From the NCBI GenBank assembly GCA_903850425.1, contig CAINLR010000043.1:1-33439 (forward strand): a stretch of DNA of 33,439 nt, read 5' to 3'. Position numbers and translations under genes: made by a program. Positions 2,048-33,439 of this stretch are shown here, piece after piece. Below the pieces are notes generated by a model. The model was not told where the DNA came from. It ran no database searches and was given only the letters and a program-made list of their open reading frames with translations. The number at the start of each line of letters is the position of its first letter. Position 1 is the first letter of the stretch. The DNA is from an uncultured Verrucomicrobia subdivision 3 bacterium (GTDB lineage: Bacteria; Verrucomicrobiota; Verrucomicrobiia; Limisphaerales; UBA11358).

Positions 2048-2959
2048 ATGAGCAAACCATTCTGGAGCGGAGTTTTCCCCGCCATCACCACCCAACTGAA
2101 AAAAGATCAGGCCATTGACTTCGATGCGACCGCCCAGCACGCCGAAGTCTTGCTTCAGTCTGGCGTCTCCGGCCTCATCTTCCTTGGTTCGCTGGGCGAA
2201 AACCAAGCGCTCCTGCCCAATGAAAAACGCCGGCTCATCGCCGAGATGCTGAAGGTGGTGAGCGGCCGCGTCCCCGTCTTGAGTTGTGTGGCCGAGACCA
2301 GCACCGCCGAAGCCTGCCGCTACGCCCGTGATGTCGAGAAGCTCGGCGTGGATGGCATCATGCTTCTGCCGGGCATGCTCTACAAAGGCGATCCGCGCGA
2401 GACGCTGGCGCACTTCCGCACGGTGGCCAAGGCGAGCGATTTGCCGATCATGATTTACAACAACCCGCTCAGCTATGGCAACGACATCACGCCCGAGCTG
2501 TTTGCCCAGCTCGCGGCTGAGAAGAAATTCGTCGCGCTCAAGGAAAGTTCCGGCGACGTGCGCCGCATCACGGATTTGCACAACACCGTGGGCGACCGCT
2601 ACGCGCTGTTCACCGGCGTGGACAATTTGGCGCTCGAAGCGAGCATCCTCGGCATTGATGGCTGGGTGGCGGGTAGCGGCATCGCGTTTCCAGCGGAGAA
2701 CCAATATTTCTGGGAACTCACGCGCAAGGGCGAATGGGACAAGGCGCGTGAAATCTACCGCTGGTTCACGCCGTTGCTGCATCTCGATGTCAGCACCAAG
2801 TTCGTCCAATACATCAAGCTCGCCGTGCAGGAAACCGGACTGGGCAAAGAATATGTCCGCGCCCCGCGCCTCACGCTGGCTGGCGAGGAACGCAAGCGCG
2901 TTTTGAAAATCATCCATGACAGCATTGCGAAGCGCCCGAAAATCCCGAAGCGGAAATAA
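2048..2959 (+). CDS. DapA-family lyase, probable 1-pyrroline-4-hydroxy-2-carboxylate deaminase
   Basis: A class I Schiff-base lyase of the dihydrodipicolinate synthase family. GSLGE is at 47-51, IYNNP carries Tyr137, and the Schiff-base Lys165 is in ALKESSGD. In hydroxyproline catabolism this family (LhpC/HypD in proteobacteria) deaminates 1-pyrroline-4-hydroxy-2-carboxylate to alpha-ketoglutarate semialdehyde. That role is inferred from the neighbouring 4-hydroxyproline epimerase, D-amino-acid dehydrogenase and semialdehyde dehydrogenase. The family signature alone would not exclude DapA or another aldolase. ATG 2048 is chosen because it begins the conserved domain; an upstream in-frame start at 1994 would add 18 residues with no homology. 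A long palindrome separates it from the epimerase gene. Confidence 0.85.
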   Translation: MSKPFWSGVFPAITTQLKKDQAIDFDATAQHAEVLLQSGVSGLIFLGSLGENQALLPNEKRRLIAEMLKVVSGRVPVLSCVAETSTAEACRYARDVEKLGVDGIMLLPGMLYKGDPRETLAHFRTVAKASDLPIMIYNNPLSYGNDITPELFAQLAAEKKFVALKESSGDVRRITDLHNTVGDRYALFTGVDNLALEASILGIDGWVAGSGIAFPAENQYFWELTRKGEWDKAREIYRWFTPLLHLDVSTKFVQYIKLAVQETGLGKEYVRAPRLTLAGEERKRVLKIIHDSIAKRPKIPKRK

Positions 2960-3121: not shown

Positions 3122-4048
3122 ATGAAAAAGATTTCAGTCATTGATTCGCACACCGGCGGTGAGCCGACGCGCGTCGTCATCGCCGGCGGACCCGACCTCG
3201 GCCCCGGCTCCGTCGCCGATCAGCTGGAAGTTTTTCGGGAGCACCATGATCGTTTTCGCTCCGCGGTGGTCAACGAGCCGCGCGGTTCGGATGTTTTGGT
3301 GGGCGCGCTGCTGGTTGAGCCGTCGGATAAATCCTGTGTCTGCGGCGTCATTTTTTTCAACAACGTCGGCTGCCTGGCGATGTGCGGTCACGGCACGATT
3401 GGCCTGGTCGTTACGCTGGCGCATCGCGGTAAAATCAAACCGGGCGAACACAAAATCGAAACGCCCGTCGGGATCGTCACCGCCACGTTGCAGGAAAGTG
3501 GCGAGGTCTCCGTGGCCAACGTGCCGAGCTTTCGCAAAACCAAGGCCGCGACGGTAGAGGTTCCCGGTGTCGGCAAGATTACCGGCGATGTCGCGTGGGG
3601 CGGCAACTGGTTTTTTCTCGTGGGCGAACCTGGTCGTGAGCTCGCTTTGGCGAACGTCGAGGCGCTCACCGATTTGTCCTGGCGCATCCGTCAGGCGGTC
3701 AACACGCAGGGTTTTCCCGAAGTGGATCACGTCGAACTGTTCGGTCCGCCGCAAAACGGCGGCGACTCGCGGAATTTTGTTTTGTGCCCCGGCAAGGCCT
3801 ACGACCGTTCGCCCTGCGGCACCGGCACGAGCGCCAAGCTCGCGTGTCTCGCGGTGGATGGAGAGTTGGCTGAAGGCGACATGTGGATTCAAGAAAGCAT
3901 CCTCGGCAGCAAGTTCACCGGCCAATTTCGCTGGTTAAACCGGGAGCGCGGTGAAGTGATTCCAATCATTACCGGCTCGGCGCATGTCAACGCCGAGGCC
4001 ACTTTGCTGCTCAACGAGCGCGATCCATTTTGCTGGGGCATCCGATGA
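3122..4048 (+). CDS. 4-hydroxyproline 2-epimerase (proline racemase family)
   Basis: Interconverts trans-4-hydroxy-L-proline and cis-4-hydroxy-D-proline, the entry step of bacterial hydroxyproline catabolism (LhpA/HypRE type). The N-terminal IDSHTGGEPTRVV, MCGHGTIG with Cys88 and DRSPCGTGTSAK with Cys232 supply the two catalytic cysteines. Two cysteines argue against a trans-3-hydroxyproline dehydratase, which has Thr at the second site. The overall sequence reads like known 4-hydroxyproline epimerases, for example the AWGGNWFFLV and SRNFVLCPGKAYDRSP blocks. ATG 3122 is used; the open frame upstream to 3101 is only read-through of the repeat. Its stop overlaps the peptidase start as ATGA (4045-4048), indicating translational coupling. 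It is 308 residues, normal for the family. Confidence 0.94.
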   Translation: MKKISVIDSHTGGEPTRVVIAGGPDLGPGSVADQLEVFREHHDRFRSAVVNEPRGSDVLVGALLVEPSDKSCVCGVIFFNNVGCLAMCGHGTIGLVVTLAHRGKIKPGEHKIETPVGIVTATLQESGEVSVANVPSFRKTKAATVEVPGVGKITGDVAWGGNWFFLVGEPGRELALANVEALTDLSWRIRQAVNTQGFPEVDHVELFGPPQNGGDSRNFVLCPGKAYDRSPCGTGTSAKLACLAVDGELAEGDMWIQESILGSKFTGQFRWLNRERGEVIPIITGSAHVNAEATLLLNERDPFCWGIR

Positions 4049-6405
4049 AAAAATTACTTCCACGGTTTGTGCTGGCACTGTGCGTTGCGGCGCAATCGGG
4101 ATTAGCCGGTGGCGCGGAGGCAGATTATTCCCGCGCCCAAGCACTCGCCCGTCGCACCGAGGGAAAAGTCTTTCGCGATGCCGTCGCGCCGCACTGGCTG
4201 CCGGACAACCGGCATTTTTGGTATCGCGTCACGACCGGCCCAGACCAACACGAATACGCTCTGGTGGATGCTTCCACCGGCGTCATCAAGCGGGCGTCAT
4301 CCGCTGAGAAAATTGGAGTGACCGAAGGCGAACGCCTTTCTAGCTCCGCGCAAAAATCACTCGCCCCCAAACGCACGACCCATAATGGCAACGAGACGAC
4401 GGTCCGTTTTCACAACACCACGGCTGCGCCCGTAGAATTGTTTTGGGTGGATGAAGGCGGCGAGCGCAAGCCTTACGGACGTGTTCGCCCCGGCCAATCG
4501 GTTGAGCAACACACTTACGCCGGCCACGTCTGGCTCGTGACGGATTCGCTCGGCAATCCGCTGGGATTTTTTGAAGCGGCACCGGACGTTTTGGAAATTG
4601 AAATTGATGGCAAGCCGGCGAAAACTGAACCGCCGCGCCGACGCCAAGGCCAGCGTCGCTCGGCGCAGTCGCCGGATAAAAATTGGTCCATCCAGTTTAC
4701 GAATCAAAACGTGGTGCTCATTGCGAGCAATGGCGAAGCCAGGTTGCTGACCACCAACGGCACGGCGGAAACGCCTTTTCGCGGTCCGGTCGTCTGGTCG
4801 CCGGATTCGCAAAGCTGCGTGATCCAATCCGTGACCGAAGTGCCGCGCCACCTCGTGACCATCGTGGAATCCTCGCCGCGCGATCAACTTCAGCCAAAGT
4901 TGCAGACCTATGATTATTTCAAGCCTGGCGACGCGCTGCCGCAGGTGCAGCCGGTGTTGATCCGTGTCGCGGGCAAGTCGGCCAAAGTCATTTCCGATGA
5001 TTTGTTCACGAACAATTTCACGCCCGGCGGCGAGTTGAATTTTCGCTGGTCGCCGCGCGGCGACGAATTTTATTTCGATTACAACCAGCGCGGCCACCAG
5101 CTCTACCGCATCTTGGCCGTCAACTCGACGAACGGCGCGGTCCGCACGGTCGTGGCGGAGCGTAGCCAAACGTTTATAGATTATGAGCAAAAGACGTGGC
5201 GCGAGTGGCTGGAGGCTTCGGGCGAACTGCTCTGGATGAGCGAGCGCGATGGCTGGGCGCATCTGTGGCTCTACGATGTCGCGACGGGCAAAGTGAAAAA
5301 TCAGGTGACGCACGGCAACTGGGTCGTGCGCGAAGTCCTCAAGGTGGATACGGCGAAGCGTCAGGTTTGGTTTCTCGCGGGCGGCGTGCGCGCGGGCGAG
5401 GACCCGTATGAGCATCAACTTTGCCGCGTTAATTTCGACGGCTCCGGCTTCATTCAGCTCACGCAGGGCGACGGCGACCACTCGGTGGAATTTTCGCCGG
5501 ACGGAAAATATTTCATCGCGAAATATTCGCGCGCGGATTTGCCGACAGTCAGCGAATTGCGCGGCAGCGACGACGGGAAATTAATCTGCGAACTCGAGCG
5601 TGCCGATGCGTCGCTGCTGCTCAAGTCTGGCTGGACGCTGCCGGAACGCTTCGTGGCCAAGGGCCGTGATGGCCAGACGGACATTTACGGCGTGCTCATC
5701 ATGCCCTCGAACTTTGATCCGCAGAAAAAATATCCCGTCGTCGAGGAGGTTTACGCCGGACCGCAGGATTCGTTCGCGCCGAAAAAATTTAGCCGGCTGC
5801 TCCGGCAACACACACTCGCGGAACTGGGATTCATCGCCGTGCAGGCGGATGGCATGGGCACCGATAATCGCGGAAAGAAATTTCACGACGTGAGCTGGAA
5901 GAATCTCGCCGATGCCGGCTTCCCCGATCGCATCGCGTGGATCAAATCGGCGGCGAAAGCGCGGCCGTGGATGGATCTGTCGCGCGTCGGTATTTACGGT
6001 GGTTCGGCCGGTGGACAAAACGCGATGCGCGCGTTGCTCGATTACAATGATTTTTACAAAGTGGCCGTCGCGGACTGTGGCTGCCACGACAATCGCATGG
6101 ACAAGCTCTGGTGGAACGAACAATGGCTGGGCTGGCCGGTGGATGACGCCTACGCGCGCAGTTCCAACGTGGACGACGCGCACAAATTGCAAGGCAAACT
6201 CTTGCTGATGGTGGGCGAACTGGATCACAACGTAGATCCCGCCTCCACGATGCAGGTGGTCAATGCGCTGGAAAAGGCGAACAAGGATTTTGAATTCATT
6301 GTCATCACCGGCTCCGATCACGGCGCAGCGGAAACACCCTACGGCAGCCAGCGGCGGATGGATTTTCTTGTCCGCAACCTGCTGAGCGAATCGGCAAAGA
6401 AATAA
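4045..6405 (+). CDS. Secreted S9 dipeptidyl-peptidase-IV-like protease with a VHL-beta-like insert
   Basis: Counting from ATG 4045, a signal peptide spans about residues 1-23. A DPP-IV beta-propeller region follows, with the bacterial SERDGWAHLWLYD signature near 400. The C-terminal alpha/beta hydrolase has a complete triad: Ser654 in YGGSAGGQ, Asp727 in GELDHNV and His759 in GSDHGAAE. DPP-IV enzymes remove X-Pro dipeptides from peptide N-termini outside the cytoplasm. Residues 117-191 are an insert within the N-terminal region that aligns to the beta domain of human pVHL, with the hydroxyproline pocket kept (W134, Y144, T157, H161, W163). The start codon overlaps the epimerase stop, and the D-amino-acid dehydrogenase begins 5 nt after the end. 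I infer that it supplies hydroxyproline dipeptides or peptides to the pathway. Actual specificity is unknown. Confidence 0.92.
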   Translation: MKKLLPRFVLALCVAAQSGLAGGAEADYSRAQALARRTEGKVFRDAVAPHWLPDNRHFWYRVTTGPDQHEYALVDASTGVIKRASSAEKIGVTEGERLSSSAQKSLAPKRTTHNGNETTVRFHNTTAAPVELFWVDEGGERKPYGRVRPGQSVEQHTYAGHVWLVTDSLGNPLGFFEAAPDVLEIEIDGKPAKTEPPRRRQGQRRSAQSPDKNWSIQFTNQNVVLIASNGEARLLTTNGTAETPFRGPVVWSPDSQSCVIQSVTEVPRHLVTIVESSPRDQLQPKLQTYDYFKPGDALPQVQPVLIRVAGKSAKVISDDLFTNNFTPGGELNFRWSPRGDEFYFDYNQRGHQLYRILAVNSTNGAVRTVVAERSQTFIDYEQKTWREWLEASGELLWMSERDGWAHLWLYDVATGKVKNQVTHGNWVVREVLKVDTAKRQVWFLAGGVRAGEDPYEHQLCRVNFDGSGFIQLTQGDGDHSVEFSPDGKYFIAKYSRADLPTVSELRGSDDGKLICELERADASLLLKSGWTLPERFVAKGRDGQTDIYGVLIMPSNFDPQKKYPVVEEVYAGPQDSFAPKKFSRLLRQHTLAELGFIAVQADGMGTDNRGKKFHDVSWKNLADAGFPDRIAWIKSAAKARPWMDLSRVGIYGGSAGGQNAMRALLDYNDFYKVAVADCGCHDNRMDKLWWNEQWLGWPVDDAYARSSNVDDAHKLQGKLLLMVGELDHNVDPASTMQVVNALEKANKDFEFIVITGSDHGAAETPYGSQRRMDFLVRNLLSESAKK
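4393..4617 (+). other. VHL-beta-like domain within the peptidase
   Basis: Sub-gene domain. Between human pVHL W88 and W117 and this protein's W134 and W163 the alignment needs no gaps and has 12 of 30 identities. Pocket residues map as W88 to W134, Y98 to Y144, H110 to H156, S111 to T157, Y112 to Y158, H115 to H161 and W117 to W163. In pVHL these residues hold hydroxyproline 564 of HIF-1alpha (established knowledge). Flanking strands also resemble the human domain: VRFHN against VIFCN, and the terminal IDGKP against VDGQP. Confidence 0.85.
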
Positions 6406-6410
6406 ATGAA

Positions 6411-7664
6411 ATGAGTAAGAGCATTCTCATCATCGGCGCCGGGGCGATCGGGCTTTCCACCGCCCTGCATTGTGCGCGCAAAGGTCATCGCGTCACTGTG
6501 CTGGAACGGCACGGCGCACAACGCGACGGCTGCTCTTTCGGCAACGCGGGCATGATTGTGCCGAGCCATTTCGTGCCCCTCGCCGCGCCCGGCATGGTCG
6601 CGCTCGGCTTGAAATGGATGCTCAATCCTGAATCGCCATTCTACATCAAGCCGCGTTTTGACGGTGAATTATTCGACTGGGCCTGCAAATTTTGGCGGGC
6701 GTCAAACGCGGAGCACGTCCGCCGCAGCGCGCCGTTGCTGCGCGACTTGAGCTTTGCCAGCCGGGCGATGTTTGAGGAAATTGCCGCGCAAACGCAGAAT
6801 GAAATCGGCCTCGTGACGCGGGGTTTGCTGATGCTCTGCAAGACGCAGCACGGCCTGGACGCTGAAGCGGAATTTGCCGCAAAGGCAAATCAGCTTGGCG
6901 TGCCGGCGGAAGTTCTCGACGCCCAGCAGACCGCCAAACTCGATCCCGGCGTGACGATGGCGGTGGCCGGCGCGGTTTATTTTCCCAAGGACGCGCACTT
7001 CACGCCGGACCGCTATCTGGCCGTGTTGGAAGCGCAGGCCGGAAAGCTGGGCGTCAGTTTCAAATGGGATGTTGAAGTGATGGGACTGGATTGCCGCGCG
7101 GGAAAAATTGCCGCCGTGCAGACGTTGAAAGGCGAATTCTCCGCCGATGAAATTATTTTGTGTGGCGGCTCGTGGTCGCCGCTGCTCGCGCACCAACTCG
7201 GTTTGAAAATTCCCATTCAGGCCGGCAAAGGCTACAGCCTCACGCTCCCGCAGCCGCGCGAATTGCCGCAGCTTTGCTCCATCTTCACCGAGGCGCGCAT
7301 GGCGGTGACGCCGATGGGTTCCTCGCTCCGATTCGGTGGCACAATGGAGATTGCCGGGCTGAATGAAGACATCAATCCCGCCCGCTTGCGGGGCATCCTC
7401 AAAGCCGTGCCGAAGTATTTCCCCGAGTTCGCCATGGATGATTTTCTGGGCATCCAGCCGTGGCGCGGCTTGCGGCCCTGTTCGCCGGATGGTTTGCCGT
7501 ATCTCGGCCGCACGACGCAATTTTCCAATCTCATCCTCGCCACCGGCCACGCAATGATGGGCATGAGCTTGAGCCCGATCACCGGCCAGTTGGTCGGCGA
7601 AATCGTCAGCGGCGAAAAGCCGTCGTTCGACCTGAGCCTGTTCTCGCCCGATCGTTACGCCTGA
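6411..7664 (+). CDS. FAD-dependent D-amino-acid dehydrogenase, probable cis-4-hydroxy-D-proline dehydrogenase
   Basis: A DadA/HypO-type flavoenzyme that would oxidise cis-4-hydroxy-D-proline to 1-pyrroline-4-hydroxy-2-carboxylate, probably passing electrons to the respiratory chain. The N-terminal dinucleotide-binding motif ILIIGAGAIGLSTALHC is followed by an acidic residue after the second strand (VLERHG). SFGNAGMIVPSHFVPLAAPGM and the C-terminal GHAMMGMSLSPITG are typical of the family. It is 417 residues, the usual length. It starts 5 nt after the peptidase stop, so it belongs to the same operon. Its 3' end overlaps the convergent aldehyde dehydrogenase by 10 nt (7655-7664). The hydroxyproline substrate is inferred from context; another D-amino acid cannot be excluded. 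Confidence 0.88.
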   Translation: MSKSILIIGAGAIGLSTALHCARKGHRVTVLERHGAQRDGCSFGNAGMIVPSHFVPLAAPGMVALGLKWMLNPESPFYIKPRFDGELFDWACKFWRASNAEHVRRSAPLLRDLSFASRAMFEEIAAQTQNEIGLVTRGLLMLCKTQHGLDAEAEFAAKANQLGVPAEVLDAQQTAKLDPGVTMAVAGAVYFPKDAHFTPDRYLAVLEAQAGKLGVSFKWDVEVMGLDCRAGKIAAVQTLKGEFSADEIILCGGSWSPLLAHQLGLKIPIQAGKGYSLTLPQPRELPQLCSIFTEARMAVTPMGSSLRFGGTMEIAGLNEDINPARLRGILKAVPKYFPEFAMDDFLGIQPWRGLRPCSPDGLPYLGRTTQFSNLILATGHAMMGMSLSPITGQLVGEIVSGEKPSFDLSLFSPDRYA

Positions 7665-9253
7665 ATCGGATTCTTCGTCCACAGACCGTTCACAATGCGC
7701 CAGATCTCGCGCGGGTTCGCATTCTGCAATTCCACGGGCAGCAACGCGTCGGGCGCGTTTTGAAAACAGACCGGGCGCACGAACCGCTGAATCGCCAGCG
7801 CCCCGACGGACGTGGTCGCAGGCGCGCAGGTTGCGGGATAGGGTCCGCCGTGAACCATCGCGTGACAGACTTCCACGCCGGTGGGAAAACCATTGAAGAT
7901 CACACGCCCGGCGAGTTGGGCGAGTAACCCAGCGAGATCCCGGACATCCGCCTCACCATCTGAGATGCCGCTATGCAGTGTCGCCGTGAGATTTCCTCCA
8001 GCGAGCGCGATGGTCTCGCGCAAGTCTGCAATGTCGCGACAGCAGATGACCACTGCGCCCGGACCGAAGGCTTCTTCCTGCAATTCGCCATGCGCACGCC
8101 ACGTCGCGGCATCCACGGCAAACAACTGCGGCGACATGGCGGCGAAGCCAGACGGTGCTTTCGCAAGGATGGTGCGGACGCCGGAAATTTTCTGAAACGC
8201 CGTCGTTGCACCGCAAAAATTCTTTTGCATGTCGGCGGCGAGCATTGTCGTGGCCGGAACGGCAGCCATCTGTTTGGCCAGTTGCGCAATAAAATGATCC
8301 GACGCGGCACCGCTGATCACAAAAACCAAACCCGGCTTGGTGCAGAACTGGCCGGCACCGGCGGTGATGGATTGCGCGAGGCCGACGGCGATGGCGTCGC
8401 CGCGCTCGGCGATGGCGCCGGGCGAAATCACCAGCGGATTCACACTGCCCATTTCCGCGAAGACCGGAATCGGCACCGGCCGCGCTGAAGCGAGATCGAA
8501 CAGCGCGCGCCCGGCACGCTTCGAGCCGGTGAAGCCCACGGCTTGCGTGGCGGGATGTTTCACCAGCGCCTGACCAACCGTCGCGCCGGGGCCTTGCAGC
8601 AGTTGGAAAATTTCTGTGGGTAATCCGCATTCTTTCAATGCGGCGAGAACGGCCTGCGTGAACAGTTCGTTAACGCCCGGATGACGTTCGTGCGCCTTGA
8701 TGACGACGGGATTGCCCGCCGCCAGCGCGGATGCGGTGTCGCCGCCGCAGGCCCCGTAGGCAAACGGAAAATTGCCCGCGCCGAAAACCACCACCGGACC
8801 GATCGGGCGCGCCACGCGGCGAACGTCCGGCTTGGGCAGCGGCTGGCGCTGCGGATCAGCGGTATCAATGACCGCGTTGGTCCACGAACCTTCGCGCAGG
8901 ACTTCGGCAAAATGTTTGAGTTGGTTGCACGTGCGGGCGCGCTCGCCGGTGAGGCGCGCGGGCGGCAGGCCGGTTTCCAATTGGGCGCGCTGGAGGAGTT
9001 CGTCGCCGAGCGCCAGGATCTGCGCGGCGATGGCTTCCAGCAGTTGCACGCGGCGCTCGACGGAGAGTTCGCGCGTGACGGTGAAGGCGCGCTGCGCCGA
9101 CTGCATCGCGGCATCCACTTCGGCTTGGGTCGCGTGGGCGAAGGCGGGCATGAGCGTCTCACCAGTGGCGGGATTCACCGCGTGCAAAGTATCCGTGCCG
9201 CTGGCCAGCCAGTGGCCGTCGATCAGTTGCTGACCGGTTAATGGAATGTTCAT
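7655..9253 (-). CDS. Alpha-ketoglutarate semialdehyde dehydrogenase (ALDH superfamily)
   Basis: Oxidises 2,5-dioxopentanoate to 2-oxoglutarate with NAD(P)+, the last step of hydroxyproline (and also pentose or glucarate) oxidation. The sequence resembles the KGSADH class III group: GAGNFPFAYGACGGDTASAL, the catalytic Glu in FAEMGSVNP and the catalytic Cys in AGAGQFCTKPG. ATG 9253 (MNIPLTGQQLIDG) is chosen; the frame is open to 9325, but the extra 24 residues do not look conserved. The product is 532 residues. It lies on the opposite strand and converges with the dehydrogenase gene, so it must have its own promoter in the 9254-9607 spacer. It completes the pathway encoded by the plus-strand genes. 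Confidence 0.9.
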   Translation of the reverse strand: MNIPLTGQQLIDGHWLASGTDTLHAVNPATGETLMPAFAHATQAEVDAAMQSAQRAFTVTRELSVERRVQLLEAIAAQILALGDELLQRAQLETGLPPARLTGERARTCNQLKHFAEVLREGSWTNAVIDTADPQRQPLPKPDVRRVARPIGPVVVFGAGNFPFAYGACGGDTASALAAGNPVVIKAHERHPGVNELFTQAVLAALKECGLPTEIFQLLQGPGATVGQALVKHPATQAVGFTGSKRAGRALFDLASARPVPIPVFAEMGSVNPLVISPGAIAERGDAIAVGLAQSITAGAGQFCTKPGLVFVISGAASDHFIAQLAKQMAAVPATTMLAADMQKNFCGATTAFQKISGVRTILAKAPSGFAAMSPQLFAVDAATWRAHGELQEEAFGPGAVVICCRDIADLRETIALAGGNLTATLHSGISDGEADVRDLAGLLAQLAGRVIFNGFPTGVEVCHAMVHGGPYPATCAPATTSVGALAIQRFVRPVCFQNAPDALLPVELQNANPREIWRIVNGLWTKNPIQA

Positions 9254-26067: not shown

Positions 26068-26622
26068 ATGGCTATACCGGGCTACAATTCGCAGGGGGTT
26101 CTCCCGCCGCACAACGGCAATCCGGCCGACATGAACGGAGCTTCGCCCTACCTCACCACCACCATCGAATTATGCGAGAAGTTTGGCACGACCCAGGCGC
26201 GGCGAACCATCCTCAGGGGTTTCCTCCAGCTACGCCAGGCGCTGACCGAGCTTGAGATGATTGACGGATTCCAGTGGCTGGATGGCCGCTTCATGGAAAA
26301 GGATCGCGGCCGTCACCCCGATCCCGAACACATTCAGGTCGTGACCTTTTGCCGCCCGTCCCCGGTCTTGGAAGACCCGTTGCTGGCGGAGCTCAAAGCC
26401 CGTGTGGATGATCTAAAAACCAGCCGTCGGGTCTATCGGGTGGATCACTACTATGTGAATCTGGATTTTGAGTTGCCCGACCTCATCAGCCACACCCGCT
26501 ATTATGCCGGCCTGCTTTCGCACCAATCGGAAACCGGCGTGTGGAAAGGAATGCTACAAATCAGCCTAAACACCGTTCAGGATGACGCGCAGGCATTGCA
26601 GAGCCTCGAAGAATCGGAATAA
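26068..26622 (+). CDS. DUF6932-like protein, degenerate nucleotidyltransferase fold
   Basis: 184 residues. The start (IPGYNSQGVLPP), SPYLTTTIELCEKFGTTQARR and GFQWLDG recall DUF6932 proteins, in which a GSF motif and a later D-x-D (PxDxDVVTF) form a nucleotidyltransferase-like active site. Here the GS Ser is Arg74 (GRF) and the D-x-D positions are His88 and Gln90 (PEHIQVVTF), so catalysis is unlikely. The C-terminal half keeps YYVNLDFELPDL and a VWKGMLQISLN segment. It is the first gene of the island operon, with a 2-nt gap to the next. It may be a structural or sensor component. The family call is from memory. Confidence 0.7.
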   Translation: MAIPGYNSQGVLPPHNGNPADMNGASPYLTTTIELCEKFGTTQARRTILRGFLQLRQALTELEMIDGFQWLDGRFMEKDRGRHPDPEHIQVVTFCRPSPVLEDPLLAELKARVDDLKTSRRVYRVDHYYVNLDFELPDLISHTRYYAGLLSHQSETGVWKGMLQISLNTVQDDAQALQSLEESE

Positions 26623-26624
26623 TC

Positions 26625-27647
26625 ATGACACCCCTTCGTCAGCTCCAAGATCTCCAGGCTGAACTCGCCAGCTTGAAGTCATTGCTCCAATCCACGCCGG
26701 CGGACCCGCTGGCCACGCCCCTCCTGCGGGGGCACGTCGAGGACATCGAAGATCGGATTCGGAAACTCGAAGCCAACCCGCCCCTGACCCCGGCCACCGA
26801 ATTGTTTTTCCGCGAAGGTGCCGCCTTTGGCACCGAGGGCCTCGAAGTCACCTTCGCCTCCGGTGTGCTGGAAAGCTACCAGAACATGGTCAGCGACCAC
26901 TACTCGGCCAAAAACTACGGCAAGCTGCGGCGGTTTGGCCGGCGGCGGCGTGAGGCGGAAACCCAGCTCTTTCTCACCGCGCTGCCGCGCGCCTCGTTCG
27001 GTTTGCAACTGTCGCAGAAACAGGTCGAAGACTTCGTGGCCGCCACGAATCTTTCCGACGCCATGCTGCAAATCAGTCTGCTGGTCGAAGCCACGGTGGA
27101 GAGCGACGCCACCTTCGAGCGGGCCTTGGCAGAGTATGATGCCCGCGTGTTTCGACCCCTGAAACGCTTCATTGAAACGCTCCATTCCAGCGCGGGCGAT
27201 TGCCGCATTGTCACCGGTTTTCACGAAACAAAACTCAGCCCCAACCAAATCGCCGACGCCTACGACCGTGTTTCCACTGCCGATCTGGAGGAAGAAACCA
27301 CCATCCTCCCCGGTGTTTTTGGCGGCTTGCTGACAAATTCCTGGCAGTTTGATTTTTGTCCCGACGGCGGGGATTGGATTCGCGGCTCGTTGTCGGATGA
27401 ATTGAGCGACAGCACCGTCGCCGACTGGAATCTCCATTACACGTCCAAGCTAACGCTGGCGGAATTGAAAATTTCGACGGTCGTGACGCGCACCGGAAAG
27501 AAAAAACCCGGCTACGTTCTGCTCAACTTGAAACCGTTGAACGAGCCGCCCAAAGGCTTGGGGACCACACCGCCACCGGATCAGCCCACGCCGCCGGTGC
27601 CACCAGCGAGACGGCCCAAACGCAAATTTAACCTTGGGGAAGAATGA
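26625..27647 (+). CDS. Unknown protein, partner of the DUF6932-like gene
   Basis: 340 residues, no family recognised. Visible features are an N-terminal heptad-like helical region (LRQLQDLQAELASLKSLL, about 3-50), a central mixed alpha/beta region with an RRFGRRRRE basic patch near 100-112, a region rich in acidic residues around 215-245, and a Pro-rich basic tail (PPPDQPTPPVPPARRPKR). There is no signal peptide or TM segment. It starts 2 nt after the previous gene. Its stop overlaps the helicase start as ATGA (27644-27647). The tight coupling suggests the three products act together. Confidence 0.75.
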   Translation: MTPLRQLQDLQAELASLKSLLQSTPADPLATPLLRGHVEDIEDRIRKLEANPPLTPATELFFREGAAFGTEGLEVTFASGVLESYQNMVSDHYSAKNYGKLRRFGRRRREAETQLFLTALPRASFGLQLSQKQVEDFVAATNLSDAMLQISLLVEATVESDATFERALAEYDARVFRPLKRFIETLHSSAGDCRIVTGFHETKLSPNQIADAYDRVSTADLEEETTILPGVFGGLLTNSWQFDFCPDGGDWIRGSLSDELSDSTVADWNLHYTSKLTLAELKISTVVTRTGKKKPGYVLLNLKPLNEPPKGLGTTPPPDQPTPPVPPARRPKRKFNLGEE

Positions 27648-30600
27648 ATGATCAGATGAATCCTCAGCCCAAATCCGAGGCACCCGCCGCCACTCCGCCC
27701 CCCGCCAAATCCGGCGGCGAGCTGTTCATCGTAGATAACAGCGATGAAAATTGGAAAGGGATAAAATATCTTCAGGACTGGACCGAAATTGCGAGTGCCT
27801 TTGATATCGCCACCGGCTACTTTGAGATTGGCTCGCTGCTCGCACTCGATGGCAAATGGCAGAAGCTGGATAAAATTCGCATCCTCATGGGCAACGAGGT
27901 GTCCGCGCGCACCCGCCAGGCTATCCTAGATGGCCTCAAGCAGGACATCACCGCCCGCCTCGATGCCAGCCTCGAATCCGAGAAGGAAAAAAATGATTTT
28001 CTCACCGGCGTCGCGGCCATCGTGCAAGCCTTGCGCGACGGCAAGATCGAATGTCGCGCCTACGCCAAAAAAAAATTCCACGCCAAAGCCTATATCACAC
28101 ATCCGCGTGTCGCCGTCATCGGCTCGGTCGCCCTCGTCGGCTCCAGCAATTTCACCGTCCCCGGACTCACGCAGAACATCGAGCTAAACATTCAGGTAAA
28201 GGCGGCGGGCGACGTGCGCCAGTTGCAGGATTGGTTCGAGCTGCATTGGAATGAGGCTGAGCCCATCACTGCGGATATCCTCGCCACCGTCGAGCGCCAC
28301 ATTCGGGAATACACGCCGTTCGATGTTTATACAAAAGCGCTCGACGAATTGTTTCGCCGGCACGAGCTCACCGCCAGCGAATGGGAAAAGACCCAGTCCA
28401 AAATCCATCCCATTCTCGACCAGTATCAGCGCGACGGCTACGCCTCGCTCTATCACACCGCCGCCAATTACAACGGCGCGTTTTTGTGCGACGGCGTCGG
28501 CTTGGGCAAGACCTTCATCGGCCTCATGCTCATTGAGCGGCTGGTGATGTATGAAAAAAAGCGCGTGGTTTTGTTCGTGCCCAAGTCCGGCCGTGTGCCG
28601 GTATGGGAGCGCAACATCAAGCGCTACCTGCCGCATTTGCTGAATGGTTTCCTGTCGTTCAAGATTTTCAATCACACCGACCTCATGCGCGAAGTCAGCG
28701 CCGACGGCACGGATTTTCCATCTATTTTTGAGCAGATGACCGAGCAGGCGGATGCCGTCATCATTGACGAGGCCCACCATTTTCGTAATCGCGGCCTAAC
28801 CCGCGAATCCGGCGGCTCCCGCTACTGGAAACTATTTGATCTATGTGCCAACAAGCAGGTGTTCCACCTCACGGCCACGCCCGTCAATAACGCCCTCACG
28901 GATTTCCAGCACCTGATCGAGCTTTTTTCCCGCGAGAAACCGGATTTTTTCGCCACCCGCGTCGGCATCCATAATCTCAGCGCCCATTTTCGGCAGTTGG
29001 AAAAACAGCTCGCCACCATCGTCAGTGGTCAGGGCTTGGGCGAACTCTTCGCGTCCAATTCCGTCGAGGCCGGTCAGGTCTTGTTCAGCGATAAATTATT
29101 CCGCGAGCTCGTCGTCCAGCGTAGCCGCGCCTACGTCGTCGAGAGCCAAAAACAGCAGGGTTCATCCGCCGCCTTGTTTCCCACCAAGGAAGACCCACGC
29201 GTGGCGAATTACTCGGTAAAAAAAACCTACGGCCACCTACTCGGCAAAGTTGAAGTCGCCTTCGCCAAGGACAAGCCCCTGTTCGCGCTGGCCCCGTATC
29301 ACCCGTTGGATTATCCGGTCGGCGACGCGCAGGAAAAACTCGACCTCGAGATCGGGCGCCAGCGCGGCCTCGTCCGCCTCATTCGAGTTCAGTTCCTGAA
29401 ACGCTTTGAAAGTTCCATCACCGCCTTTGAGCAGTCCTGCCAGAATTTGTTGCTGAAATTCATCGCCTTCCTTGAAGTCAACAGCCAGTCCAAGCACGAA
29501 AAGGACCACCTCGAAAAATGGCGCACCCGCAATCAGGAATTGTTGTCCCACATTCACAGCCGCCGGCAAGCGCTGGCCGAGGAGGAGGCCAGTGAGGAAA
29601 CTGAGGAAACGCTCGGTGATGAGTTTCTCGACCACTTTGAAGTGCTGGATCGCAAGACCTACCGCGTGGACGAAATCTTTGACGATACCTATGATGACCT
29701 CGAAACTCTCCGCGATTTTCTGGAGGAATTGAAAAAATTCACGCCAGCCCACGATGACAAACTCAAGGCGCTGGTCAAGCTGCTGAAATCCGACGCCGAC
29801 CTGAAAGGCCGCAAGGTGCTGGTGTTCACGGAATACATGGCTACCGCCCGTTACCTCAAGCACGAGTTGCAGGCGGCCGGCATTGAGGGCGTAGATGAAG
29901 TGGACAGTGCCACCAAACAGGATCGCACCGTCGTCCTCCAGCGATTCGCCCCTTACTACAACGATTCGTCCACCGCCGATCTCGCCGAGCGCGGCTTGAA
30001 GGAAACGCGCATCTTGCTCGCCACCGATGTTCTGTCCGAAGGTTTGAACCTCCAGGACGCCACGCGCATGATCAATTACGATCTCCACTGGAATCCAGTC
30101 CGCCTCATGCAGCGGATTGGCCGCGTGGACCGCCGTCTGAATCCCGCCGTGGAAAAAAATATCATCGCCGATCATCCCGAGGAAAAAAACCAGCGCGGCA
30201 AGGTCGTGTATTGGAATTTTCTGCCGCCCGATGATCTCGAATCCTTGTTGAAACTTTACAGCCGGGTCGCGCACAAGACCCTGCGCATTTCCAAGGTGTT
30301 CGGTATTGAGGGCAAAAAACTGTTAAAACCGGACGATGACTACGCCGCCCTTAAAGATTTTCAGCACAGCTACGAAGGATCCACCACGCCTACCGAGAAA
30401 ATGCAATTGGAGTTGGAACGTCTGTTAAAAGAAAATCCCGCCCTCGAAGCCCAACTCGGCCAGCTCCCCGGTCGCGTGTTCAGCGGCAAGGCCCACCATG
30501 AGGCCGTCGGCGCGCAGGCGGTGTTTTTCTGCTACAACCTGCCGGCTGAGGATGCCGCCACGCACGAATGGACGGATGCCGCTGGTCGCACCGAGTGGTA

Positions 30601-30823
30601 TCTCTATAATTTTTCCACCTCCAAAATTCTCGATCAGCCCGAGGAAATCCATGCCTGGATCAAATGTCAGGCCGACACGGCCCGTCGGGTGGAAATGACC
30701 GCCGAGGCGTTGCGCACCGTCCGCCTGAAAATTGAGACACACATCAAAAACACCTATCTGAAGCAGATGCAAGCACCCGTTGGCATCAAGCCCACGCTGA
30801 AATGCTGGATGGAAATAAACTAG
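27644..30823 (+). CDS. PLD-domain SNF2-type helicase
   Basis: 1059 residues. Residues about 24-190 are a phospholipase-D-like domain with HAK (His146, Lys148) and VGSSNFTVPGL (165-175). The Asp of the classical HxKx4D motif is not present. The SNF2/SF2 motor follows: Walker A DGVGLGKT (283-290), DEAH at 375-378, LTATP at 409-413, and motif VI MQRIGRVDRR near 820-830. A charged coiled-coil insert lies around 640-690. PLD-helicases occur in restriction-like anti-phage systems, where the motor moves on DNA and the PLD domain may cleave or bind it (family knowledge). Whether this domain cleaves is uncertain. It is coupled to the upstream gene by ATGA and is followed 5 nt later by the DUF3800 gene. 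Confidence 0.9.
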   Translation: MNDQMNPQPKSEAPAATPPPAKSGGELFIVDNSDENWKGIKYLQDWTEIASAFDIATGYFEIGSLLALDGKWQKLDKIRILMGNEVSARTRQAILDGLKQDITARLDASLESEKEKNDFLTGVAAIVQALRDGKIECRAYAKKKFHAKAYITHPRVAVIGSVALVGSSNFTVPGLTQNIELNIQVKAAGDVRQLQDWFELHWNEAEPITADILATVERHIREYTPFDVYTKALDELFRRHELTASEWEKTQSKIHPILDQYQRDGYASLYHTAANYNGAFLCDGVGLGKTFIGLMLIERLVMYEKKRVVLFVPKSGRVPVWERNIKRYLPHLLNGFLSFKIFNHTDLMREVSADGTDFPSIFEQMTEQADAVIIDEAHHFRNRGLTRESGGSRYWKLFDLCANKQVFHLTATPVNNALTDFQHLIELFSREKPDFFATRVGIHNLSAHFRQLEKQLATIVSGQGLGELFASNSVEAGQVLFSDKLFRELVVQRSRAYVVESQKQQGSSAALFPTKEDPRVANYSVKKTYGHLLGKVEVAFAKDKPLFALAPYHPLDYPVGDAQEKLDLEIGRQRGLVRLIRVQFLKRFESSITAFEQSCQNLLLKFIAFLEVNSQSKHEKDHLEKWRTRNQELLSHIHSRRQALAEEEASEETEETLGDEFLDHFEVLDRKTYRVDEIFDDTYDDLETLRDFLEELKKFTPAHDDKLKALVKLLKSDADLKGRKVLVFTEYMATARYLKHELQAAGIEGVDEVDSATKQDRTVVLQRFAPYYNDSSTADLAERGLKETRILLATDVLSEGLNLQDATRMINYDLHWNPVRLMQRIGRVDRRLNPAVEKNIIADHPEEKNQRGKVVYWNFLPPDDLESLLKLYSRVAHKTLRISKVFGIEGKKLLKPDDDYAALKDFQHSYEGSTTPTEKMQLELERLLKENPALEAQLGQLPGRVFSGKAHHEAVGAQAVFFCYNLPAEDAATHEWTDAAGRTEWYLYNFSTSKILDQPEEIHAWIKCQADTARRVEMTAEALRTVRLKIETHIKNTYLKQMQAPVGIKPTLKCWMEIN

Positions 30824-30828
30824 CTCCC

Positions 30829-31506
30829 ATGCCTGCCGAACCCCAACCACGATTCCTTTATATCTTCCTCGACGAGGCGGGCAATCTGGATTTTGCCCGG
30901 AATGGGTCAAAATATTTCGTCTTGGGCGGCATCACCAAGGAACGGCCATTCCATGCCTACAAGGAATTGACGGAATTCAAATACGATCAGGTGCAGCGCG
31001 GCACGGCTTTGGAGTATTTCCACGCCTCGGAAAACGCGCAGGCCGTGCGCAACGGCGTGTTCGACATCATCGAAAAGAATCTGGCCGGCGTGGCGGTGGA
31101 TGCCATCATCGTGGAAAAGCAAAAAGTCGCCGCGGCCTTGCGCGACGAGGAACAGTTTATTCCCAAAGTGCTGGGCACGTTGCTGCGGGAGATTCTCCGG
31201 CATTATCCACTGGGCGATTTCGCCGAGGTGATCGTGTTCACGGACAGTCTGCCGGTCCAGCGCAAACGCGGCGCGGTGGAAAAGGGCGTGAAGATGACGC
31301 TGGCGGCCATGCTCCCGGCCAACGTGCGGTATCGCGTGCTGCATCATGCGTCCAAGTCCAATCTGGATTTGCAGATCGCAGATTATTGCACCTGGGCCAT
31401 TTACCGGAAATGGAACGGATCGGATGACCGCTCGTTCAAACGGGTGGCGGCGGCGGTGCGGCGCGAGTGGGATGTGTTGCAAACCGGAACGGGATTTCCG
31501 GACTGA
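30829..31506 (+). CDS. DUF3800 domain protein
   Basis: 225 residues from ATG 30829. The N-terminal YIFLDEAGNLDF carries the DE pair of DUF3800, and the C-terminal SNLDLQIADYCTWAIYRKWN is the second conserved block. DUF3800 has been compared to RNase H-like nuclease folds; activity is unproven. A longer frame opens at 30802, overlapping the helicase, but ATG 30829 gives the conventional 5-nt gap. Proteins of this family recur in restriction and defence islands. The following 208 nt are non-coding and hairpin-rich. Confidence 0.87.
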   Translation: MPAEPQPRFLYIFLDEAGNLDFARNGSKYFVLGGITKERPFHAYKELTEFKYDQVQRGTALEYFHASENAQAVRNGVFDIIEKNLAGVAVDAIIVEKQKVAAALRDEEQFIPKVLGTLLREILRHYPLGDFAEVIVFTDSLPVQRKRGAVEKGVKMTLAAMLPANVRYRVLHHASKSNLDLQIADYCTWAIYRKWNGSDDRSFKRVAAAVRREWDVLQTGTGFPD

Positions 31507-31529
31507 ATCATGAAGACTGGAAAAAATGA

Positions 31530-31582
31530 CCGCCCCGGCTACTCTTGCGAGAGAACCCAATGGGTTCTTGTCACCGGGGCGG
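31530..31582 (+). ncRNA. Strong hairpin in the DUF3800-methylase spacer
   Basis: CCGCCCCGG (31530-31538) pairs perfectly with CCGGGGCGG (31574-31582). An inner stem AGAACCC (31552-31558) pairs with GGGTTCT (31562-31568) around a 3-nt loop. No T-tract follows, so it is not a standard terminator. It may be a structured RNA, a processing site, or a dispersed palindrome; I cannot tell which. Confidence 0.5.
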
Positions 31583-31612
31583 AACCTTTAAATTGTTTGT
31601 CTGGCTGCCTGC

Positions 31613-31646
31613 CAGCGGCTGCTATCATCGGCTATCGTGGCCGCTG
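31613..31646 (+). repeat. Second hairpin in the DUF3800-methylase spacer
   Basis: CAGCGGC (31613-31619) pairs with GCCGCTG (31640-31646) around a 20-nt loop. It follows the larger hairpin by 30 nt and precedes the methylase ATG by about 70 nt. Confidence 0.5.
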
Positions 31647-31714
31647 CGTCAAACCCGTTTTGCTAACTTGTTTTATCACCCGGCATCCACAACGTTGCCA
31701 ATCATAATTTTCCC

Positions 31715-33439
31715 ATGTCCAACCAACTCCGCGACATCCGCAAGTTCACCGACCTCGTCCGCTACCTGGAAAGCGAACTCGAATGGCCGGTGGAGGCGGG
31801 CAGCTTTGACGACCTCACGTTCGAGTATCAGCCTGCCGAACTCGGCTTGAAGGACGAGGACGCCGTCAAAATCAAAAAAATTCACCAGCTTCGTCCTCTG
31901 GTGACCGGCCAGCCGTGGGGCATTTTCTTCATCGAATTTGAAAAGAAAAAACTTCCGGTCGTCGTCCTGCGTTGCATCTTGAGCCATCTCGTCGTGAAAA
32001 AACGGCAGTCGGCCAATAAGTCCGACCAGGCCGTATGGAATCCCGCAGACCTCCTGTTCATCTCCGCCTATGGCGATGAAGCCAGCGACCAGCGCGAAAT
32101 CGCCTTTGCCCATTTCCACCAGCAGGCCGGCGATCTGCCTACGTTGAATGTCCTCGGCTGGGACGGCGGCGATACCCCGCTCAAACTTGATTACGTCGCC
32201 GGCCAGTTGCAGGATAAACTCCACTGGCCCGCGAATCCCAAAGACCAGAACGCCTGGCGCTCTCAATGGCGTGCGCCGTTCCGCCATCGCATCGGCCATG
32301 TCATCCGCACCGCCGACAGCCTCGCCGAAGTTCTCGCGGCGCTGGCACGCGGCATCCGCGACCGCTGCAAAATAAAAATGCGCGCCGAATCCGAACACGG
32401 CGCATTGACCAAGCTTTACAAAGGTTTCCAGACCGCGCTCATCCACGACCTCAAGCCGGATGATTTTGCCGACACCTACGCGCAGACCATCACCTACGGC
32501 CTGCTTACCGCCGCCATTTCCCGCACGGAAATGAGCGAGGGCCGCCACGGCACAGTGCTGTTCGCCGAAAACGTCACCGACATGGTGCCGGTCACGAATC
32601 CGTTTCTGAAGGAAATGCTCCAGACCTTTCTGAAAGTGGGCGGGCGCAAGGGCGGCATTGATTTCGACGAACTCGGCATTCAGGACGTGGTGGAGCTCCT
32701 GCGCGGCGAGGAAACCGACCTCCCCGCCATCCTGCGCGACTTCGGCAACAAGACGCGCGGCGAAGACCCCGTCATCCATTTCTACGAACACTTCCTGTCC
32801 GCCTACAACAAGCAGTTGAAAATCCAGCGCGGCGTTTTCTACACGCCGCAACCGGTCGTCTCCTACATCGTCCGCAGCGTCCATGAACTGCTGCAAACCG
32901 AGTTCGGCCTGGAGGACGGCCTGGCCTCGACCGCGACGTGGGGCGAAATGCTGGCAAAAAATCCCAACCTCAAATTGCCGTCCAAATCCGGCGACCCCGG
33001 TGACAAGGCCACCATCGCCCCCGGCGAAATGTTCGTCCAGATACTCGACCCCGCCACCGGCACGGCCACGTTTCTCGTCGAGGTGATTGACGTGATCCAC
33101 CGCACGCTGAAAACCAAGTGGGACAAGGGCGGACTCAAAGCCATGCCCAAGCTGCCGCCGACCTCGTTTCCCCGGCAGCCGGCGGCCTTTGGCGAGTATT
33201 GGAATCAATACGTCCCGCTCGCGCTGCTCCCGCGCCTGCACGGCTACGAATTGATGATGGCACCCTACGCCATCGCCCACATGAAGATCGGGCTGAAACT
33301 CCACGAGACCGGCTACCATTTCGGCACCGAGGAACGCGCCCGCATCTACCTCACCAACGCGCTCGAACCCAAGGTCACGCAACTCCCGCAGATTGGTTTT
33401 GACGCGCTCGCCCACGAAGCCGCCGCCGTCAACGAAATC
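31715..33439 (+). CDS. Class I N6-adenine DNA methylase (Eco57I / type ISP-like), 3' end outside the window
   Basis: The frame is open from ATG 31715 to the window end (575 codons, incomplete). The N-terminal region (about 1-190) resembles the non-catalytic or nuclease-like domain of Eco57I-type enzymes, with WGIFFIEFEKKKLP and WNPADLLFIS. A helical region follows (LTKLYKGFQTALIHDLKPDD, YAQTITYGLLTAAISR), then RGVFYTPQPVVSYIVRSV and SAM-binding motif I DPATGTATFL near 443-452, in which an Ala replaces the usual second Gly of GxG. The catalytic NPPY/F motif should lie beyond the window. In this setting it probably modifies host DNA and marks self for the helicase-nuclease components. Nearly the whole gene is overlapped by a long antisense ORF that is only a shadow. 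Confidence 0.87.
   Translation, partial: MSNQLRDIRKFTDLVRYLESELEWPVEAGSFDDLTFEYQPAELGLKDEDAVKIKKIHQLRPLVTGQPWGIFFIEFEKKKLPVVVLRCILSHLVVKKRQSANKSDQAVWNPADLLFISAYGDEASDQREIAFAHFHQQAGDLPTLNVLGWDGGDTPLKLDYVAGQLQDKLHWPANPKDQNAWRSQWRAPFRHRIGHVIRTADSLAEVLAALARGIRDRCKIKMRAESEHGALTKLYKGFQTALIHDLKPDDFADTYAQTITYGLLTAAISRTEMSEGRHGTVLFAENVTDMVPVTNPFLKEMLQTFLKVGGRKGGIDFDELGIQDVVELLRGEETDLPAILRDFGNKTRGEDPVIHFYEHFLSAYNKQLKIQRGVFYTPQPVVSYIVRSVHELLQTEFGLEDGLASTATWGEMLAKNPNLKLPSKSGDPGDKATIAPGEMFVQILDPATGTATFLVEVIDVIHRTLKTKWDKGGLKAMPKLPPTSFPRQPAAFGEYWNQYVPLALLPRLHGYELMMAPYAIAHMKIGLKLHETGYHFGTEERARIYLTNALEPKVTQLPQIGFDALAHEAAAVNEI

Follow-up and report, generated by a model that had tools for sequence, protein, structure and literature searches.

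A predicted VHL beta domain with a conserved hydroxyproline pocket in an S9-family peptidase encoded beside candidate hydroxyproline catabolic genes

Why would a bacterial peptidase carry a domain of the kind with which human pVHL binds hydroxyproline (Hyp), and why would its gene lie beside genes for Hyp breakdown? The question is raised by contig CAINLR010000043.1 (assembly GCA_903850425.1) from an uncultured Verrucomicrobia subdivision 3 bacterium, of which positions 1 to 33,439 were analysed; this whole stretch of 33,439 nucleotides is called the window below. A first-pass annotation, made from its letters and open reading frames, had noted a VHL-beta-like domain inside a DPP-IV-like protease and had proposed that the domain reads Hyp in extracellular peptides and guides a proline-specific peptidase. 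Part of this interpretation was supported, by the fold, the conserved pocket, the recurrent adjacency to Hyp genes and, at some loci, neighbouring aminopeptidase P and peptide transporters; the proline-specific peptidase was not. Our own reading, to which we give a probability of roughly 0.55, is that the VHL domain would serve as a docking exosite for Hyp-containing peptides on a probably secreted S9 peptidase that feeds Hyp catabolism.

A VHL beta domain inside an S9-family peptidase

The Pfam VHL profile (PF01847) matches residues 117–168 of the peptidase with an E value of 7.2e-8 and 32.8 bits, above its curated cut-off of 21, which bears out the first-pass annotation; among three weak-threshold matches in the same genome, this domain is the sole one above the cut-off. 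Searched alone against the PDB, the domain matched 27 distinct sequences up to an E value of 10, of which 24 are pVHL (E about 1e-5) and the other three are dIG14-scdim (2.7e-5, level with the poorest-scoring VHL rows), scIg12 (0.0014) and Rep (1.1). The segment W134–W163 aligns without gaps to pVHL W88–W117 with 12 of 30 identities, a figure that our recount reproduced.

A model of the domain alone, predicted with 77 relatives, has a mean pLDDT of 86 and folds as a VHL beta-sandwich. Its best Foldseek match has an E value of 2.1e-7, and the top 50 of 75 rows with E <= 0.001 are all VHL-containing entries. With VIA-align, the highest-scoring match (Z 12.1; 3.8 Å across 87 residues) is tied with pVHL entry 4w9j (Z 11.6; 1.7 Å across 83 residues). 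Profile, PDB sequence search and Foldseek together rule out a chance similarity, and by sequence and predicted structure residues 112–190 are a true VHL beta domain. The window domain has the beta-sandwich in common with human pVHL, at 24–27% identity across the aligned part, but it sits within a peptidase. Also, none of the eight Pfam families matched by the window protein up to an E value of 1 is the C-terminal, elongin-binding VHL family, and the modelled chain past the domain continues as propeller strands rather than as a pVHL-type alpha domain. A role as a pVHL-like E3-ligase subunit, which would call for an alpha domain that binds elongin C, is not supported on either count.

Within the peptidase, the domain is an insert behind the chain's first strands, N-terminal of the Peptidase_S9 and DPPIV_N matches. 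A probable Sec signal peptide, judged by eye from MKKLLPRFVLALCVAAQ, stands at the N-terminus, and the enzyme is probably secreted. The full-length model (pLDDT 88.6) has DPP4s as its top fold matches, including Porphyromonas gingivalis DPP4 (5olj) at Z 33.3, although at 6.5 Å over 610 residues. A propeller, an alpha/beta-hydrolase and a Ser-Asp-His triad are common to the window protein and to DPP-IV and bacterial DPP4 (S9B), and Ser654, Asp727 and His759 are invariant in alignments of 19 rows (A2) and 44 rows (A5).

The likeness to DPP-IV stops short of its specificity. The nucleophile motif reads GGSAGG in the window peptidase and GWSYGG in DPP-IV, from which the hallmark DCGCHDNRMDKxWWN also sets it apart. 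By reading, TTNGTAETPFRGPVVWSPD stands where the Glu-Glu segment of DPP-IV would be expected, and that segment was not found in the window peptidase; we take the DPP-IV segment at this place to be DWVYEEE, which presumably holds the substrate N-terminus. A regular expression for the Glu-Glu segment matched none of 121 members of the peptidase subfamily, with a reach so poor that it matched just one of nine other S9 proteins. At the S1 site, an ungapped alignment to 5olj gives A655, N683, D686 and W690, all invariant across 19 rows (alignment A3), as the counterparts of what we take to be the proline pocket of human DPP4 (Y631, W659, Y662 and Y666). Because both the Glu-Glu segment and the S1 proline pocket are missing, identity as a proline-specific DPP-IV is not supported, and of the earlier designation only the DPP-IV-like fold, seen in the model, is retained. 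To our knowledge, this S9 subfamily has no characterised member.

Conservation of the hydroxyproline pocket

As described in an excerpt of PMC6105673, the Hyp pocket of pVHL consists of W88, Y98, I109, S111, Y112, H115 and W117; S111 and H115 bind the Hyp hydroxyl, Y98 binds the carbonyl, and the Hyp is almost completely buried. Six of these seven positions are kept in the window domain. W134, Y144, H161 and W163 are identical to their pVHL counterparts and T157 replaces S111, as the first-pass annotation had it for the five Hyp-contact residues, and Y112 is additionally kept as Y158.

Relatives were gathered from genome contigs by peptidase motifs (DCGCHDN and RMDKxWWN) and not by the VHL domain. 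The best 80 of at least 584 confirmed motif places were kept, these being the loci nearest a VHL-bearing query, and 78 of the 80 carry the domain. The pocket alignment holds 78 domains, one from the window and 77 from the VHL-positive named loci, which number 78 (L104, which carries the domain, was left out), and its rows had to match the VHL profile. Among 61 positions examined (pVHL 70–130), all five Hyp-contact positions fall within the seven most conserved, rivalled by N78 and G114 alone; the hypergeometric value of 3.5e-6 is a guide only, as positions are not independent and the rows were selected by the profile and by nearness to the query. When all collected S9 rows are taken, the exact pattern W-Y-T/S-H-W is found in 108 of 114, and Thr or Ser at 111 together with H115 in 112 (one gene, L107 = L236, is counted twice). 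By these alignments, little else in the domain is as well conserved as the pocket residues.

If the pocket accommodates Hyp from an extracellular peptide in the manner of pVHL, the Hyp ring would lie between W134 and W163, with the 4-hydroxyl on T157 and H161 and the carbonyl on Y144. Docking through the VHL domain would then bring nearby peptide bonds to the active site for cutting, and the fragments would be imported and, in some relatives, trimmed by a co-encoded aminopeptidase P. Gelatin and collagen are candidate sources of such peptides.

Hydroxyproline genes around the peptidase

Hyp is degraded to 2-oxoglutarate by an epimerase, a D-Hyp dehydrogenase, a deaminase and an aldehyde dehydrogenase, and the genes around the window peptidase (Table 1) offer a candidate for each step, through which free Hyp might be consumed. 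The stop codon of the epimerase gene and the start codon of the peptidase gene overlap as ATGA at 4045–4048, and 5 nt separate the peptidase stop from the ATG of the FAD D-amino-acid dehydrogenase/oxidase (DAAO) at 6411, just as first annotated. For the epimerase, the best NCBIfam model is HypE, which scores 412.5 bits and so falls short of its cut-off, 450; both Cys motifs are present, and we take their Cys pair to be catalytic. The best NCBIfam model for DAAO reaches 286 bits, under its cut-off of 383, and for the aldehyde dehydrogenase every NCBIfam model is far under its cut-off.

Table 1 Coordinates of the peptidase, its VHL domain, pocket and catalytic residues, and the neighbouring genes in the window.
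Feature	Position	Strand	Basis or conservation
DHDPS-family protein, candidate pyrroline-4-hydroxy-2-carboxylate deaminase	2048..2959	+	Pfam family; role by context
4-hydroxyproline epimerase-type proline racemase	3122..4048	+	Pro_racemase E 2.7e-98; Cys in CGHG and PCGTG motifs
S9-family peptidase, 786 aa (ATG 4045, stop 6403-6405)	4045..6405	+	Pfam Peptidase_S9 and DPPIV_N; probable Sec signal peptide
VHL beta domain, residues 112-190	4378..4614 (about)	+	profile, PDB sequence search, predicted model; limits from model strands
W134 = pVHL W88	4444..4446	+	kept in 78/78
Y144 = pVHL Y98	4474..4476	+	kept in 77/78 (one Phe)
T157 = pVHL S111	4513..4515	+	Thr in 71, Ser in 7 of 78
H161 = pVHL H115	4525..4527	+	kept in 78/78
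W163 = pVHL W117	4531..4533	+	kept in 77/78 (one Phe)
Catalytic Ser654 (GGSAGG)	6004..6006	+	alignment to S9 proteins
Catalytic Asp727	6223-6225	+	alignment to S9 proteins
Catalytic His759	6319-6321	+	alignment to S9 proteins
FAD D-amino-acid dehydrogenase/oxidase (DAAO), candidate D-hydroxyproline dehydrogenase	6411..7664	+	family match; role by context
Aldehyde dehydrogenase, candidate 2-oxoglutarate semialdehyde dehydrogenase	7655..9253	-	convergent; role by context

The arrangement recurs. Open reading frames (ORFs) within 6 kb of 99 genes for VHL-bearing S9 peptidases (VHL-S9 genes) were clustered without preselection, and the 4-Hyp epimerase was the commonest neighbour family (22 of the 99 loci), followed by DHDPS-type proteins (19), DAAO (16), AraC-PAS regulators (12), DUF1501 proteins (11) and M24 proteins (10), with antisense ORFs besides. 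At 14 of the 99 genes, the epimerase lies on the same strand within 130 nt of the peptidase. In a cultured relative, Chthoniobacter flavus Ellin428 (L083), the epimerase gene stands immediately upstream. The representative of the M24 family is an aminopeptidase P, and an M24 gene lies 0 nt from the peptidase in loci L042, L062, L063, L065 and L116; a POT transporter is another repeated neighbour. Going by their titles, the loci with Hyp catabolic genes beside the peptidase include both Verrucomicrobiota and Armatimonadota. Four of the loci (L076, L087, L090 and L096) carry titles naming Klebsiella pneumoniae or Akkermansia muciniphila; their peptidases are closest to environmental ones of Verrucomicrobiota, and they are probably misnamed metagenome-assembled genomes.

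The association was also examined by genome, in a sample of 387 from Verrucomicrobiota, the window's own phylum, 35 of which have an epimerase. With all 35 epimerase loci followed to the contig ends, the S9 profile finds just four S9 peptidases, and all four are VHL-S9. An epimerase is present in 7 of 21 genomes with a VHL domain over the cut-off and in 28 of 366 without (p 0.0013). The 80 named loci, picked for their resemblance to the window protein, come from 79 genomes, and 51 of these genomes have an epimerase (34/49 and 17/30). Of the window's nearest relatives (L062–L065), L062 alone has a DAAO gene beside the peptidase, and the genomes of L062 and L065 encode an epimerase elsewhere.

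Peptidases of the subfamily that have no VHL domain allow a comparison. Such members, for example L133, L138 and L143, show on reading a linker at the domain's place and keep the hydrolase; the VHL domain is a removable insert. From 24 VHL-less genes, L163 (the other half of the contig-split gene L044) and L162 (a 186-residue fragment) were dropped to give 22; conversely, L044, whose split peptidase fell under the score limit, was added by hand to the 99 VHL-S9 genes. An epimerase is found in the contig DNA around 23 of these 100 VHL-S9 genes, and no Hyp gene in that around any of the 22 VHL-less members (p 0.013, or 0.0069 with 23 VHL-less genes, not corrected for phylogeny). Among own-phylum genomes that hold both an epimerase and the peptidase, the two are adjacent in 4 of 7 with the VHL domain and in 0 of 11 without (p 0.011). 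Co-occurrence at the genome level is a trait of the peptidase subfamily, and adjacency alone goes with the VHL domain.

These counts bear on a different account, in which the operon link belongs to the peptidase as a supplier of peptides and the VHL domain has nothing to do with Hyp, acting as a structural or protein-protein spacer. In its favour are the linkers of L133, L138 and L143, and within the phylum an epimerase is indeed more frequent in genomes with VHL-less members (11/19) than in VHL genomes, if never beside the peptidase. Against it stands the contrast between 23/100 and 0/22; nor does a spacer explain why the pocket is better conserved than the remainder of the domain. We consider this account decidedly unlikely.

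Several observations weigh against a docking exosite for Hyp peptides, and they limit our confidence in it. In the pocket, I109 of pVHL is Q155, the sole departure beyond the exchange of Ser for Thr, and W88 and W117 may be conserved as core residues too. Around the peptidase, 77 of 100 VHL-S9 genes have no epimerase in their contig DNA, many contigs being short, but even among the 33 named loci flanked by 9 kb or more on each side an epimerase is found at only 10; no Hyp gene lies in the contig DNA around the peptidases of L063, L064 and L065. At the genome level, no epimerase was found in 14 of the 21 own-phylum VHL genomes, and its presence in 11 of 19 genomes with VHL-less members belongs here as well. 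In Planctomycetota, none of the 34 VHL loci examined (37 of 38 matches; 15 loci with an S9 peptidase) has a Hyp gene, and an epimerase at 45% identity or more occurs in 5 of 26 VHL genomes against 17 of 173 (p 0.18, not significant), or, with any epimerase match, in 7 of 26 against 23 of 173 (p 0.08). A strict rule that a VHL domain goes with Hyp genes is thereby ruled out, by most VHL-S9 loci and by all 34 of those in Planctomycetota. On the peptidase tree, Hyp linkage is patchy, with 15 changes, and presence of the VHL domain changes just four times, with two independent starred pairs. Because of these few changes, VHL presence and Hyp linkage cannot be compared free of phylogeny, and the adjacency contrast between VHL and VHL-less members rests on few events. 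The link between the domain and Hyp genes recurs, yet it is patchy and not separable from phylogeny.

Elsewhere in the window, positions 26068–33439 may hold a defence or restriction island, with ORFs judged by eye; one (27644–30823) reads as helicase-like with a phospholipase-D-type start, and another (31715 to the end) as a methyltransferase-type protein.

Other VHL carriers and the origin of hydroxyproline recognition

VHL domains are also found on sulfatases, an acetylesterase, LRR proteins, kinase-MORN, MACPF and F5/8C-NPCBM proteins and small standalone proteins, a spread that suggests a versatile module. Together with the absence of a Hyp gene near most VHL-S9 genes, it invites the explanation that the pocket is functional with a different ligand, such as proline itself, some other side chain, a cell-wall component or a glycan. 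Linkage to Hyp genes would then reflect general peptide scavenging. The residues that would contact the 4-hydroxyl argue otherwise. H115 is kept in 112 of 114 S9 rows (with the same gene counted twice), as is its pairing with Thr or Ser at 111, but it is lost in 13 of 14 VHL domains of sulfatases, esterase and LRR proteins (6 of these 14 carriers were assigned by eye, not by Pfam); proline alone would need neither S111 nor H115. We therefore regard a ligand other than Hyp as unlikely, while granting it some weight.

A second, protease-like type of carrier shows the same pattern. Eight proteins of about 410 residues (382–450 as called; L207–L214) have a C-terminal VHL domain and the motif HEFAH or HEFGH; we read them as zinc proteases from this motif, and a Pfam metallopeptidase match was seen in one of five scanned (L211), weak and below the cut-off. 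All eight keep H115 and six keep the full pocket. Two metallopeptidase-type proteins with an N-terminal VHL domain (L105 and L170) both keep H115, without Y98 and W117. For the remaining carriers, H115 is present in 3 of 3 standalone, 1 of 1 kinase-MORN, 2 of 2 F5/8C, 1 of 4 MACPF and 0 of 4 AraC proteins. In these sequences, the full pocket is associated with proteases, in keeping with a domain that reads a peptide feature, but the standalone proteins (3/3) have it intact too. The p value for the carrier contrast in H115, 2.5e-15, is overstated, because the losses amount to only three changes on a poorly resolved VHL-domain tree (83 columns; 75 of 146 inner branches open) and are not independent events; this again tempers the case for Hyp docking.

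Some carriers differ in architecture. Two S9 peptidases (L049:431-3205 and L216:3008-4387) have a C-terminal VHL domain in place of the N-terminal insert, which suggests that the module has changed position within the S9 family. Four AraC-family regulators (L178:13933-15162, L179:4875-6110, L180:820-2043 and L199:4352-5521) end in a VHL-like domain that scores 19–23 bits with a custom profile and has a pocket of W-I-D-S-W; Pfam VHL matched none of the three that were scanned. In four genomes, at most 1.5 kb separates these regulator genes from the DAAO gene of a Hyp operon, and the domain is perhaps a VHL-derived sensor of the Hyp pathway.

At one further locus (L077:6816-10408), two sulfatases with a C-terminal VHL domain, in which H115 is changed to Ala, are encoded immediately upstream of an epimerase gene and a VHL-S9 gene, and the second overlaps the epimerase start. 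Such sulfatases fit a variant in which the domain reads Hyp-rich wall proteins of plants or algae instead of collagen-type material, plausible for Verrucomicrobiota of soil and freshwater. Against this variant, no glycosidase was found among eight representatives of neighbour families scanned, a small part of the neighbours. Moreover, glycosylated Hyp should not fit, because the pVHL pocket, as an excerpt of PMC6105673 has it, buries Hyp almost completely. We hold this variant to be very improbable.

The Pfam VHL family and the occurrence of VHL in bacteria are already known. A hypothetical VHL protein of Litorilituus sediminis (EMK97_00595) is an earlier published bacterial VHL beta domain; in the portion of PMC9002001 available, it is discussed as a tumour suppressor, and the main text has no "peptidase" and has "hydroxyproline" once, for HIF. 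By title and abstract start, this was the sole bacterial case in the searched literature using "VHL beta domain", the phrase in PMC13223302 referring, in the part seen, to an engineered plant system. 4-Hyp gene clusters have been described through genome neighbourhoods of the epimerase family, with peptidase families near one cluster of Bacilli (PMC4113996, in part); a term search of its main text gave no VHL, Hippel, Verrucomicrobi or Planctomyc. Among the items listed from the literature searched, which left most subscription journals and preprints outside, we found neither VHL on S9 peptidases nor a link to Hyp operons described, and no item combining hydroxyproline, Verrucomicrobi* and VHL.

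Oxygen sensing in animals, like much of the PROTAC field, centres on the Hyp pocket of pVHL. That the same pocket is present, and very strongly conserved, in bacterial proteases that are probably secreted opens the origin of Hyp recognition to testing. Tentatively, and at somewhat less than even odds, we suggest that the VHL domain with an intact pocket is a Hyp-specific exosite in PVC-group bacteria, which two or more unrelated protease types (S9 and HExxH) have recruited for feeding on hydroxylated protein from animals or plants. Hyp reading of the pVHL type would then not have been invented for oxygen sensing in animals, whose pVHL would descend from the bacterial domain or be its sister. 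If Hyp docking proves true, the window peptidase would be a candidate bacterial protease guided by a post-translational mark on its substrate, and its VHL domain a possible source of small Hyp-binding reagents.

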